A stretch of DNA of 64,000 nucleotides, taken from assembly GCF_000427095.1 (NCBI RefSeq), contig NC_021487.1, positions 1,990,674 through 2,054,673 of the forward strand. The letters are read 5' to 3'. The DNA is from Chthonomonas calidirosea T49 (GTDB lineage Bacteria > Armatimonadota > Chthonomonadetes > Chthonomonadales > Chthonomonadaceae). The notes beneath the pieces were generated by a model. The model was not told where the DNA came from and did no database searches. It saw nothing but the letters and a program-made list of their open reading frames with translations. Below are positions 1,511 to 64,000 of the stretch, piece after piece; the first letter of the stretch is position 1; each line of letters starts with the position of its first letter. Both the position numbers and the translations under genes were made by a program.

Positions 1511-2881
1511 GTGAAAAAGTTTTTGCGCCGTCTCGGTGCAGTTACGGGTTTGGTTGGAGTAACGGCAGGCGCTTTTTGGGTTGGGCGCCAAATGGCCTCG
1601 CACGCAGACACCTCTTTGTGGAGTCTACAGCGGCTGATCGCGACAGACCGACGGCACCTTGCCAGCATCGAGCTAGCAGATGGGCGTTTCGCCTTACAAG
1701 ACGTAAACGTTCCCCCAGCTGAGGTTTTCGAAAGTGTGCTTGAACATGTGCGGCACGACTACGTGCGTAGCTACGGCACGGAGACCTCCTTGGGCGACGG
1801 TGCCCTCTCAGGCATGTTTGCCTCCCTCAACGATCCCAAAACGGACTTCCTGAAACCTTCGTTAGGGCAAGCACATACCGATGCTCTGCAAGGCCGTTTT
1901 TACGGTATCGGGGTCGTGCTGAATGTCCTGCAAACCAAACAGAAGGACGTAGACTATCGTTACCTCACCGTTACCGATGTTATGCCCAATAGCCCTGCGC
2001 AAAAGGCCGGTCTGCAAGATGGCGACCGCATTACCCATATTGATGGGCACTGGATTATCGCCTACTCTATCCTCGACGATGTGAACCGCATTCAAGATGA
2101 AACCGGCAAAAGCGACGCGGACAAACAGAAAGAACTTGAGGTCGTTGCCAATAAATTCAAAGATGGCTACTCCCTCTCTAAAGCCATAGAACTTCTCACT
2201 ACAGGAATCGGACAAACCCACCAGCTCACCATTGTACGCCCCGGTGAGGCTGCCCCCCTTACAAAAACCGTTACCACCGCACTTACCGTGGTGCCCTCGG
2301 TATCCTACCGCCTTCTTGGCGACGGAATAGGCTATCTGCGCATCCAACTTTTCAACCAGGAGAGCGAAAAAGCCTTCCAACAGGCCTTGGCAAATATAGG
2401 CCCCCTCAAACAACTGATCGTTGACCTACGTCAAAACCCAGGAGGGGTGGAGGCTATCAACACGCCTAATCTTGACGGATGGCACGCAGCACAGACTCTT
2501 ATCGGAGAGCTCACCGGTGGCGGAAAAGCTGGAATTATAGAAAAGCACCCTAATGACCGCTCGCCCATCATGATAGCGGCTTCCAAAAAGCTCCCTGTCC
2601 AAAAGATCACCGTGCTTGTAGACGCCGGCACAGCTAATATCGCCGAGTTTGTGGCAGCAGCCCTACATGATCTCGCTCACGCTCAAATCGTGGGCACCCA
2701 TACCGAGGGTGATGATGTGCTGCAACTCTACGCCCCGCTCCCTGATGGGGCCGCCATAGAGATCGCCACAGCGCACCTTTTAACGGCAACAGGTACCGAC
2801 CTAAGCCGTGGGCTAACACCGGATATCTCTTTAACGCCCAACCAAGTGGATACCGATGCGGCCATCCAACGTGCAGAATAG
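1511..2881 (+). CDS. S41/CtpA-type protease paralogue, catalytically dead
   Basis: A 456-residue exported protein with CtpA layout: N-terminal membrane/signal segment, PDZ domain (VMPNSPAQKAGLQDGDRI, about residues 155-175) and an S41 core (LIVDLRQNPGG, VLVDAGTANIAEF). In active CtpA enzymes the nucleophile is the first Ser of SASE and the base is a Lys 25 residues later. Here those positions are Asn376 and Asp401, so the Ser-Lys dyad is gone while the fold is kept. GTG start with GGGAGG at 1500-1505. It lies directly upstream of an intact S41 gene, so it is probably an adaptor or regulator of that enzyme; the role is inferred. Confidence 0.85.
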   Translation: MKKFLRRLGAVTGLVGVTAGAFWVGRQMASHADTSLWSLQRLIATDRRHLASIELADGRFALQDVNVPPAEVFESVLEHVRHDYVRSYGTETSLGDGALSGMFASLNDPKTDFLKPSLGQAHTDALQGRFYGIGVVLNVLQTKQKDVDYRYLTVTDVMPNSPAQKAGLQDGDRITHIDGHWIIAYSILDDVNRIQDETGKSDADKQKELEVVANKFKDGYSLSKAIELLTTGIGQTHQLTIVRPGEAAPLTKTVTTALTVVPSVSYRLLGDGIGYLRIQLFNQESEKAFQQALANIGPLKQLIVDLRQNPGGVEAINTPNLDGWHAAQTLIGELTGGGKAGIIEKHPNDRSPIMIAASKKLPVQKITVLVDAGTANIAEFVAAALHDLAHAQIVGTHTEGDDVLQLYAPLPDGAAIEIATAHLLTATGTDLSRGLTPDISLTPNQVDTDAAIQRAE

Positions 2882-2914
2882 GCCGAAAGCAAAGAGGTCG
2901 TGAAGGAAAAACCT

Positions 2915-4321
2915 ATGAAACGAGAGATCGTGAGTCCTCTAGTCGTTAGTGTTGTTTTTCTGGCATTGTTGGCCGGTTTTGCCAGCAAAAGCCTTTCGCA
3001 GTCTGCCCTTCAACCAGGGTTCCATTCGGCTCGCTTCCTCCAGAGCGACGATGCCACGCAAAACCCACAGAATGCAAAAAACTCGGCCGATGCCGAGGCG
3101 ATGTACGCCGAAGGACTATCGCTGCTACGCAAATACTACTATGGCAGTATAGGCGAAAACAAAACCCGCCAACTCACCTACGATGCCATTCGTGGCATGC
3201 TGTTGACACTTCACGACCCCTTTACTAGCTTCCTCGACCCAGACGAGTGGCTGCAGTTTCAAGAGACAACCACTCGTGGCGATTTTGAGGGTATTGGCAC
3301 CATGCTCCGAGCCGACCCACCACGCGTGATCGTAGATGAGGTGATCGAAGGCGGCCCGGCCGAACATGTTGGAATGAAAGCGGGTGATATCATCACTCGC
3401 GTTAACAACACCTCCGTTGTTGGCATGGATATCAACGATGTGGTGAAACTGATCAAAGGACCGGCAGGGACCAAAGTGCACATCACGGTGACGCGTGGAA
3501 ACAAGACCATCGAATTTACTATCACTCGTGCACGTGTGGAACCGCCTGTTGTTAAGTATTGGATGGAGGATCCAAAATACAAAATCGGTCACATCTACCT
3601 CTCCGAGTTCAACGAAAAGAGCCTGGAACAGCTCAACAAAGCCTTCTCGGCCCTTCAAGCTCAAGGCATGCGGGCCCTTGTTTTCGATCTCCGCTCCGAC
3701 CCAGGTGGGCTGCTGGAAAAGGCTGTGGAGATCGCCTCCATCTTTATTCCGAAAAACAGCGTGCCTGCTCTCCACAATAACGTGGTGATCATCCATGAAG
3801 GGGACGGTGAGGAGCAGGGCCGAAAACTCGAAAACGTGGATACCACCTACAAACATCGTGTGCCGCTTGTCGTTTTGGTGAACGATTCTAGTGCCTCCGC
3901 CTCCGAAATCGTTACCGGTGCTATTAAGGATTATGGAGCAGGAACTATCATCGGGCAGCGCACCTATGGGAAAGGCTGCGTGCAAACGCTTTTTCAACTC
4001 GACGACGGCTCCTGTCTCAGGCTTACCACCGCGCTCTACTACCCCCCAAAGCACTACGATATCAATTATCAGCAGGATGAAAATCACAACCGTATTCCCG
4101 GTACTGGCGGCATTCTGCCCGATATCGAGGTGCTGCCGGAGCCGAATTGGCAAGGCCTTAACGATAAAGCCCACGACCGACAGCTGCAGGCCGCTCTCGC
4201 CTTCCTGCGAGACCGCCTCAACGGCATGAGCATTATGCAGGCAACGACAGCGGTAAAAGAGGCCTTTAGTCCGAAAACGACAGCCGATGCAGCCAAACCG
4301 ATAGCCATAGGAGGGAAGTGA
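2915..4321 (+). CDS. C-terminal processing peptidase, S41 family (active)
   Basis: A periplasmic serine protease of the CtpA/Prc type, 468 residues from ATG 2915. This start is preferred over in-frame GTG 2900 because AAGGA at 2903-2907 has 7-nt spacing. Order: signal anchor (residues ~5-25), PDZ (VIEGGPAEHVGMKAGDIIT), S41 core (VFDLRSDPGGLLEKAVE). The dyad is intact: Ser328 in SSASASE and Lys353 in RTYGKGCVQ. It is second in a three-gene unit, between a dead paralogue and an exported thioredoxin-fold protein starting 3 nt after its stop. Such enzymes trim or degrade envelope proteins; the target is unknown. Confidence 0.93.
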   Translation: MKREIVSPLVVSVVFLALLAGFASKSLSQSALQPGFHSARFLQSDDATQNPQNAKNSADAEAMYAEGLSLLRKYYYGSIGENKTRQLTYDAIRGMLLTLHDPFTSFLDPDEWLQFQETTTRGDFEGIGTMLRADPPRVIVDEVIEGGPAEHVGMKAGDIITRVNNTSVVGMDINDVVKLIKGPAGTKVHITVTRGNKTIEFTITRARVEPPVVKYWMEDPKYKIGHIYLSEFNEKSLEQLNKAFSALQAQGMRALVFDLRSDPGGLLEKAVEIASIFIPKNSVPALHNNVVIIHEGDGEEQGRKLENVDTTYKHRVPLVVLVNDSSASASEIVTGAIKDYGAGTIIGQRTYGKGCVQTLFQLDDGSCLRLTTALYYPPKHYDINYQQDENHNRIPGTGGILPDIEVLPEPNWQGLNDKAHDRQLQAALAFLRDRLNGMSIMQATTAVKEAFSPKTTADAAKPIAIGGK

Positions 4322-4324
4322 GCC

Positions 4325-4894
4325 ATGCAGACAAAGAGCTACTCAAAAGGGACTTTAGGTGCACTATGGGGTGGTGTTTTGGTGATGCTTTTAGCACTCA
4401 GTTCACTGGCCAAACCCGATAGTCCCTACAAAGCTGGCGATAAAGTGGATTTTAGCCTTCGCAATGCGGAAGGCAAACAGGTAAGCCTTTCCCAGTTCAA
4501 AAACAAGATCGTCGTGCTCGATTTTTATGGCTACTACTGAGGAACCTGCAATGAGGAGGCTCCTCATGTGGAAAAAGAGATTTGGCAAGCTTTTAAAAAG
4601 AGAGGCGTGCAGGTGCTTGGCATCGCCGTTCCCGAAGGGGCTAATCCAACACAGGAGCAGCTCCTAAGCTTCAAGAAACGCCATGGCCTTACCTACCCTC
4701 TCTTGGCTGATGACGATGGCAAGGTAGCAACCCGTTTTGGAGTGCAGGGAATACCGGATATCCGCATTCTCGATAGAGACCATCGTTATGTGGGGCAAGC
4801 CCAAGATGTGTCACAAGCCGTCCAGATGGTTCAGCGGCTATTGAATCTAAAAACCTCTGCAGACAAACCCCAAAAACCTCGCTCCTCCCCATGA
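4325..4894 (+). CDS. Exported thioredoxin-fold (AhpC/TSA, TlpA-like) protein, predicted selenoprotein with UxxC
   Basis: The frame opens at ATG 4325, meets TGA at 4538-4540 and continues without shift to TGA 4892-4894. Read through, it is 189 residues with the internal TGA as residue 72. Residues ~8-28 are a hydrophobic signal segment. VVLDFYGYY-U-GTC-NEEAPH places the TGA at the first Cys of the redox CxxC, with Cys75 kept; GIPDIRILD supplies the cis-Pro (Pro144). Everything after the TGA is well-formed thioredoxin sequence, so decay or simple termination is unlikely. A hairpin follows 10 nt after the TGA. ATG is 3 nt after the ctp stop, suggesting coupling. Predicted periplasmic thiol/selenol oxidoreductase or peroxidase. 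UGA decoding as Cys is the alternative. Confidence 0.88.
4538..4567 (+). promoter_or_regulatory. SECIS-like element: in-frame TGA plus downstream hairpin
   Basis: TGA at 4538-4540 is followed by 10 nt and then a perfect hairpin: ATGAGGA (4551-4557), loop GGC (4558-4560), TCCTCAT (4561-4567). Bacterial SECIS elements lie just downstream of UGA inside the coding region, with a short stem and a G in the first loop positions; here the loop begins 17 nt after the UGA, close to E. coli fdhF. A weak lower stem can extend with one bulged A. The same design occurs at 63847-63876 with one compensated pair change. Confidence 0.82.
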
Positions 4895-4947
4895 TAAGAA
4901 GTTCAGCGTAAAGCGAGCGTTTATCTCGAATAGATAGTCGTGTCGTC

Positions 4948-4980
4948 ACCCGCACGTTTTACGTGCGGGTGTTGTGTTTC
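4948..4980 (+). terminator. Rho-independent terminator of the ctp/selenoprotein operon
   Basis: A perfect 11-bp hairpin, CACCCGCACGT / ACGTGCGGGTG with a TTT loop, spans 4948-4972 and is followed by TTGTGTTT. It sits 53 nt after the selenoprotein stop and before the aldolase gene. The U tract is imperfect. Confidence 0.75.
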
Positions 4981-63561: not shown

Positions 63562-64000
63562 CTACTTCAGCTCGATATTAAGTTGCTTGAGAGCGCTTTT
63601 AAGCGCATTGGGGTCAAAGCCTTCCGCCCAATAACGCACAATGCCCTCTTTGTCAATCACCACGTTGGTGGGAATGGCCTCGATCAGATAGGCATCATCT
63701 ACCTTGTTGTCTGCATCGTCGAGAATGGGAAATGTGAGTTTGTGCCTTTTGCGGAAGTCTAAAATGGGTTGCAACTTCTCACCACCATCAATAAGGAGAA
63801 GCACGGCGCCCTGCTGCTTCAGTTGAGGCCAAATCTCGTTTTGTAGATGCGGAGCCTCCGCATTACAGGCGGGTCACCAAGAGGTGGAGAAATCGAGAAG
63901 AACGATCTTGCCGCGCAGGTCGTGCAGCGAAACGGTTTTACCGTCTATCGTCTTTAGGGTAAAGTCTGGAGCGGGTTTGCCAATCAGTTTGGCCGCACGT
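63562..64000 (-). CDS. Second thioredoxin-fold (TlpA-like) predicted selenoprotein with UxxC (5' end beyond window)
   Basis: The minus-strand frame is open from 64000 to the TAG at 63562-63564 except for one TGA at 63876-63874. Upstream residues GKPAPDFTLK, DGKTVSLHDLRGKIVLLDF lead into STSW-U-PAC-NAEAPH, so the TGA again replaces the first Cys of CxxC, in the canonical W-C-x-x-C setting, with the second Cys kept. Downstream: IPTNVVIDKEGIV (cis-Pro) completes a TlpA/ResA thioredoxin. It shares NxEAPH...EIW with the 4325 protein, so the two are paralogues. The N-terminus (probably a signal peptide) is outside the window. Cys insertion at UGA is the alternative. Confidence 0.88.
63847..63876 (-). 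promoter_or_regulatory. SECIS-like element of the second selenoprotein
   Basis: On the minus strand TGA (63876-63874) is followed by 10 nt and then ATGCGGA, loop GGC, TCCGCAT (63863-63847), a perfect 7-bp stem. Spacing, stem length and loop equal the element at 4538-4567. One pair is changed from A-U to C-G with both sides altered. TGTA/TACA can extend the lower stem past one bulged C. Confidence 0.82.

Follow-up and report, generated by a model that had tools for sequence, protein, structure and literature searches.

Gene organization of the locus

The window, which is the whole 64,000-nucleotide stretch of the Chthonomonas calidirosea T49 genome analysed here, carries close to its left end an operon in the order dead S41 paralogue, active Ctp and UxxC redoxin. 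A second redoxin gene with an in-frame UGA lies at the right end. The features are as follows:

1511-2881, forward strand: catalytically dead S41/PDZ paralogue, with Ser changed to Asn and Lys to Asp (alignment)
2900-4321, forward strand: Ctp, an S41 C-terminal processing protease with Ser333 and Lys358 present, and with C360 and C372 (TIGR00225, alignment, model)
4310-4314, forward strand: Shine-Dalgarno-like GGAGG, 10 nt 5' of the ATG at 4325 and within the end of the Ctp gene (sequence)
4325-4894, forward strand: selenoprotein gene for a ResA/TlpA-like redoxin with the motif U72-G-T-C75 and an N-terminal hydrophobic export signal (sequence, Pfam, AlphaFold, Foldseek)
4538-4540, forward strand: in-frame UGA, residue 72, decoded as selenocysteine (sequence, homologue alignment, Sec machinery)
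4551-4567, forward strand: bSECIS hairpin with a 7-bp stem, the 3-nt loop GGC (4558-4560) and 17 nt from UGA to loop (folding, covariation)
4947-4971, forward strand: terminator-like hairpin of 11 bp with a T-rich tail, 3' of the selenoprotein gene (consensus scan)
63562-64000, continuing past the window end to 64881 (L081:4239-5555), reverse strand: second UGA-containing UxxC redoxin, with an N-terminal DUF2092 domain (sequence, domain match)
63874-63876, reverse strand: UGA of the second redoxin, with its own SECIS (sequence, SECIS alignment)

There are 18 nt between the end of the paralogue and the start of Ctp, and 3 nt between the Ctp stop codon and the ATG of the selenoprotein gene. The ORF at 2900-4321 scored 288.7 bits against TIGR00225 (cut-off 218.6), and its Ser333 and Lys358 are invariant; the ORF at 1511-2881 reached 151.5 bits, below the same cut-off, and its two dyad residues are replaced by Asn and Asp. 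The terminator consensus scan returned 7 sites vs 5.3 expected in shuffles, and the hairpin at 4947-4971 is the probable end of the operon.

The frame at 4325-4894 is translated into 189 residues and then ends at a normal TGA stop; a standard ORF caller gives here just a 108-aa fragment starting at 4568. The domain search was run with Cys substituted at the TGA, and the conceptual protein matched PF00578 (AhpC-TSA, 1.8e-22) over residues 40-151, a region that spans the TGA; the Redoxin and Thioredoxin_8 domains also match across it. The sequence-only reading had described a single internal TGA, flanked on both sides by thioredoxin-fold sequence and placed at the first position of a CxxC motif. 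This description was confirmed, since the sole internal TGA is codon 72, the PF00578 match runs through it, and G-T-C75 follows. The N-terminus is hydrophobic and ends in SSLA-K, which suggests that the redoxin is exported.

Conservation of the UGA codon and the SECIS hairpin

Homologues were searched in 291 Armatimonadota genomes, and homologues with an internal TGA occur in related genera and families. There are 21 genes in which the TGA is aligned to the first, redox-active Cys of the homologues. Besides the gene at 4325-4894 these comprise 20 further UGA copies, of which 19 are spread over 16 other genomes and the remaining one belongs to C. calidirosea T49 itself. The homologues keep the flanking sequence on both sides as well as the TGA itself, and therefore the intact frame across the TGA is not due to chance.

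All 21 UGA genes have a 7-bp stem with the loop starting 17 nt past the UGA, and the core GGAGGCUCC is near-invariant (19/21 copies). Among the stem cells of these genes, 146 of 147 are paired, vs 80±4.5 when synonymous codons were resampled (3000 trials, maximum 96). The Cys homologues have 88 of 224 stem cells paired vs 93 expected, showing that the hairpin is absent from them, and slid registers of the stem gave at most 57% pairing in every case. Three stem pairs vary on both sides (UA/CG, GC/CG and CG/AU/GC). Moreover, the wobble base of the conserved proline codon tracks the second base of codon 77, a co-change beyond what protein coding alone accounts for. The published criteria for bSECIS elements (PMC13188914) are a loop of 3-9 nt, a stem of 4-16 bp, a spacing of 16-37 nt, a G within the first two loop positions and an MFE of at most -7.5; the hairpin at 4551-4567 falls within all of these (7 bp, GGC, 17 nt, -11.6 kcal/mol). 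No Rfam family matched the hairpin region above chance. The covarying SECIS provides strong comparative evidence of recoding.

Selenocysteine machinery of the host

C. calidirosea T49 is an aerobic thermophile (PMC4959169), and its genome was searched as a single contig of 3,437,861 bases. It encodes a tRNA-Sec with the anticodon TCA (UCA in RNA), together with selB (376 bits, cut-off 242), selA (529 bits, cut-off 268) and selD (364 bits, cut-off 125). All four components are thus present, and for this reason a missing Sec machinery, named in advance as the result that would speak against decoding, cannot be held against it. The sequence-only claim that UGA is read as selenocysteine in this organism is supported, and the proposed checks that were run all gave positive results: the machinery, the hairpin with its agreement with the SECIS criteria and its covariation across 21 genes, and the Cys opposite the TGA in the homologues. 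SelB and Sec-tRNA-Sec would decode the UGA at 4538-4540 as selenocysteine, directed by the SECIS at 4551-4567.

The selD gene is a selenoprotein gene too, with an in-frame TGA in a GUASK context (L018:1531), and the sequence 3' of its TGA differs from the redoxin SECIS. A whole-genome search with the SECIS model matched the two redoxin genes and no further selenoproteins, and the search for a formate dehydrogenase as a further Sec protein gave nothing over the cut-off. Among the genomes with UGA copies, selA was found in 13 of 17, vs 142 of 291 overall (Fisher p ~0.02, kinship ignored); the 4 in which selA was not found are all draft assemblies.

Phylogeny, fold and predicted activity of the redoxin

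In the tree of the redoxin family, all 21 Sec copies fall into one supported group (97/90) with five Cys copies inside, and three switches between Sec and Cys are needed. In the genome G208, a redoxin gene with UGA and another with TGC form a sister pair (L069, L070); the hairpin of the Cys copy is partly degraded, with 5 of 7 pairs kept, and this copy is possibly a recent Sec-to-Cys change.

The invariant positions of the redoxin are 72, 75, E78, P80 and P144, of which E78 is the counterpart of Glu80 in ResA. The AlphaFold model (pLDDT 89, pTM 0.79) has a thioredoxin fold, with U72 directly preceding the helix 73-93. The active site therefore begins the first long helix, as in the ResA/TlpA-like fold, and the conserved proline is also found. 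The nearest PDB folds in Foldseek were 2ls5, a putative disulfide isomerase from Bacteroides, and ResA. No NCBIfam model scored above its cut-off for the redoxin, and the ResA model NF002854 gave 74.1 bits, below its curated cut-off of 170. Only distant matches were returned when close relatives were sought in the collection of genome contigs; in the plasmid search, the matches listed were all distant and annotated as TlpA family.

These data make it very probable that the product of 4325-4894 is an envelope thiol:disulfide reductase and a selenoprotein. The UxxC periplasmic oxidoreductase proposed from the sequence is thus supported by the ResA-like thioredoxin fold and the motif U72-G-T-C75, together with the predicted export. 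The exported product would act as a ResA/TlpA-type thiol:disulfide reductase, in which Sec72 would attack and Cys75 would resolve the mixed selenosulfide. A membrane protein of the DsbD type would restore the reduced redoxin; a DsbD gene is encoded in the genome and is a possible electron donor. The computation shows the Sec machinery, the conserved and covarying SECIS, the fold, the operon and the joint occurrence of the two Ctp cysteines. We infer the direction of electron flow, the export and the role of Ctp as a client.

Relationship to known selenoproteins and redoxins

With PF00578 and UxxC, the redoxin belongs to the Prx-like thiol:disulfide oxidoreductases (PF00578, UxxC/UxxU), which are listed predicted selenoproteins in PMC13188914 and PMC9312934. 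Related UxxC redoxins are also found among the predicted selenoproteins of these sources and of the Sargasso Sea set (PMC1088965). The Prx-like oxidoreductases, for example WP_010940744.1, share with the present protein the Pfam family, the Sec position in UxxC, a bacterial SECIS shortly 3' of the UGA and a predicted redox role; the likeness to WP_010940744.1 is one of Pfam family and motif. The present gene differs from the listed type in its Armatimonadota host, in the near-invariant GGAGGCUCC core and in its operon with Ctp and the dead S41 paralogue, which is confined to one clade.

The UxxC thiol-disulfide isomerase-like proteins (cd02966/PF13905) and the UGC-type TlpA selenoproteins are similar in having a TlpA/ResA-like fold and an active-site Sec; the latter, however, have another motif, and the NCBIfam WAxxUGC model gave 26.7 bits vs its cut-off of 300. 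The closest named fold is that of Bacillus ResA (1st9, 4nmu), which shares the CxxC position, the Glu80 equivalent and a conserved proline ahead of the last strands. The attacking Cys of ResA is replaced by Sec in the redoxin, and the operon gives no hint of cytochrome maturation.

The sequence-only reading had stated that no described family with this operon was known. The operon indeed seems undescribed, and the operon section in the available text of PMC13188914 names no protease partner. The protein family, however, is not new, because UxxC redoxins of PF00578 are already listed as predicted selenoproteins; any novelty would lie in the link to Ctp. In a term search of the openly available selenoprotein literature, none of the papers mentioned Armatimonadota; three papers that contain both selenocysteine and Armatimonadetes deal, judging from their titles, with different topics. 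Because the standard ORF call splits the gene at the TGA, the gene adds a probably unrecognised Armatimonadota lineage of selenoproteins.

Linkage with the Ctp protease

Among the 30 genomes examined, the UxxC gene lies directly 3' of Ctp only in G000, G045, G048 and G050, and the three-gene order of C. calidirosea is kept in the last three. The linkage with Ctp and its dead paralogue that had been read from the sequence is therefore real at the level of gene neighbourhood and recurs as an operon in three more genomes; a functional link is suggested by the gain of two Ctp cysteines that coincides with it. The gene order of C. calidirosea has been described as scattered rather than operonic (PMC4959169), and the retention of an operon carries more weight against this background.

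An S41 paralogue adjoins Ctp in nearly all 30 genomes, and the orthologues adjoining the linked Ctps are likewise dead. The dead paralogue is retained next to Ctp throughout the order and beyond (1511-2881; L062, L063, L066). This lasting proximity suggests that the protease has a conserved pseudo-enzyme as its partner.

The cysteines C360 and C372, near the catalytic K358, occur together in 5 of the 30 Ctp orthologues, including the four UxxC-linked Ctps and the unlinked one of G047. In the other 25, position 360 is occupied by R, K, L or E and position 372 mostly by A or G; cysteines are few or absent in the mature domains of these proteins. The pair is thus found in 4/4 linked vs 1/26 unlinked Ctps (Fisher 1.8e-4, with kinship ignored and one event counted). 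The five Ctps with the pair form one clade (100/97), and because C360 and C372 arose in this one clade, their association with UxxC counts as just one event in evolution. No UxxC gene was found behind Ctp within 1.5 kb in G047. Since G047 is the sister of G045 within the clade, it has probably lost the linked gene.

Each of the two cysteines begins one strand of a single hairpin in the model of Ctp (pLDDT 84), C360 the strand 360-366 and C372 the strand 372-381, and according to this predicted secondary structure they should lie far apart. A disulfide switch between the two within one Ctp subunit was considered and is unlikely, because both residues start strands of the same hairpin; a guard role or a mixed-disulfide role for C360 would fit the model better. 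DsbG shields single cysteines of periplasmic enzymes against oxidation, and by analogy it may serve as a model of how a reductase could guard an envelope enzyme at a cysteine that is exposed. However, DsbG belongs to a different subfamily and is dimeric and Cys-based, and for the redoxin Ctp is a putative client.

Evaluation of alternative explanations

One objection is that translation truly stops at the TGA, or that this codon is an error of sequencing or the mark of a pseudogene, and that the product ends at residue 71. UGA is ordinarily a stop, and the 108-aa fragment from 4568 is all that a standard caller reports; however, the same TGA in 20 other genes, the covarying SECIS and the full Sec system make this explanation scarcely credible. 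The other 20 UGA copies, together with the covarying SECIS, led to the rejection of a true stop or a sequencing error, and the probability that 4325-4894 is a selenoprotein gene is put at about 0.97. The selenoprotein might also be a selenium-dependent thiol peroxidase, with Sec72 attacking peroxide and Cys75 resolving, so that the envelope is protected. AhpC-TSA as the top Pfam match and the Bcp/PrxQ-type structures among the fold matches point in this direction, whereas the redoxin lacks the TxxU motif that marks Sec peroxiredoxins, it has the conserved proline and an invariant Glu78 of the ResA type alongside UxxC, and the nearest folds and sequences are those of disulfide reductases (ResA, 2ls5) rather than peroxiredoxins. 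A peroxidase is accordingly improbable.

The role of Ctp is more evenly balanced. The redoxin might be a real UxxC reductase that is placed beside Ctp for co-expression in envelope quality control, with other clients and with no relation to the Ctp cysteines, and the chances of this are about even. It would agree with the UxxC gene standing alone, away from Ctp, in G043, G044, G052 and G038, and with the Cys pair of G047 in a genome without the linked gene; moreover, as the pair and the linkage belong to one clade, shared ancestry could suffice. In the vicinity of the UxxC gene of G043, G044 and G052 there are MacB-like transport genes, with a MacB-type permease (L064, L065, L068). Because related genera place the gene elsewhere in this way, Ctp is not the general client of UxxC. 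On the other hand, the order's other Ctps are nearly Cys-free and the two cysteines close to the active site appear in precisely the clade with the linked gene, and the operon is kept despite the scattered gene order of C. calidirosea (PMC4959169). The gain of two cysteines in the UxxC-linked lineage suggests Ctp as a redox client. It is therefore tentatively proposed that Ctp is a dedicated client of the UxxC selenoprotein in the Chthonomonas clade, where it would be the most likely single client. The redoxin would hold C360 beside the catalytic lysine, and perhaps C372, in the reduced state, so that Ctp would stay active under oxidation. The odds are somewhat against a selenoreductase devoted to the redox control of Ctp, with the Cys pair gained in the lineage in which the operon was joined. 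If it is true, the activity of Ctp would be dependent on selenium as well as on the envelope redox state; with Ctp as the client, a processing protease of a cultured bacterium would be under selenium-dependent control.

The second UGA redoxin

The active site of the second redoxin, at the right end of the window, is U-P-A-C, and the redoxin is fused to the N-terminal DUF2092 domain. This gene is also broken at its TGA by the standard ORF call.
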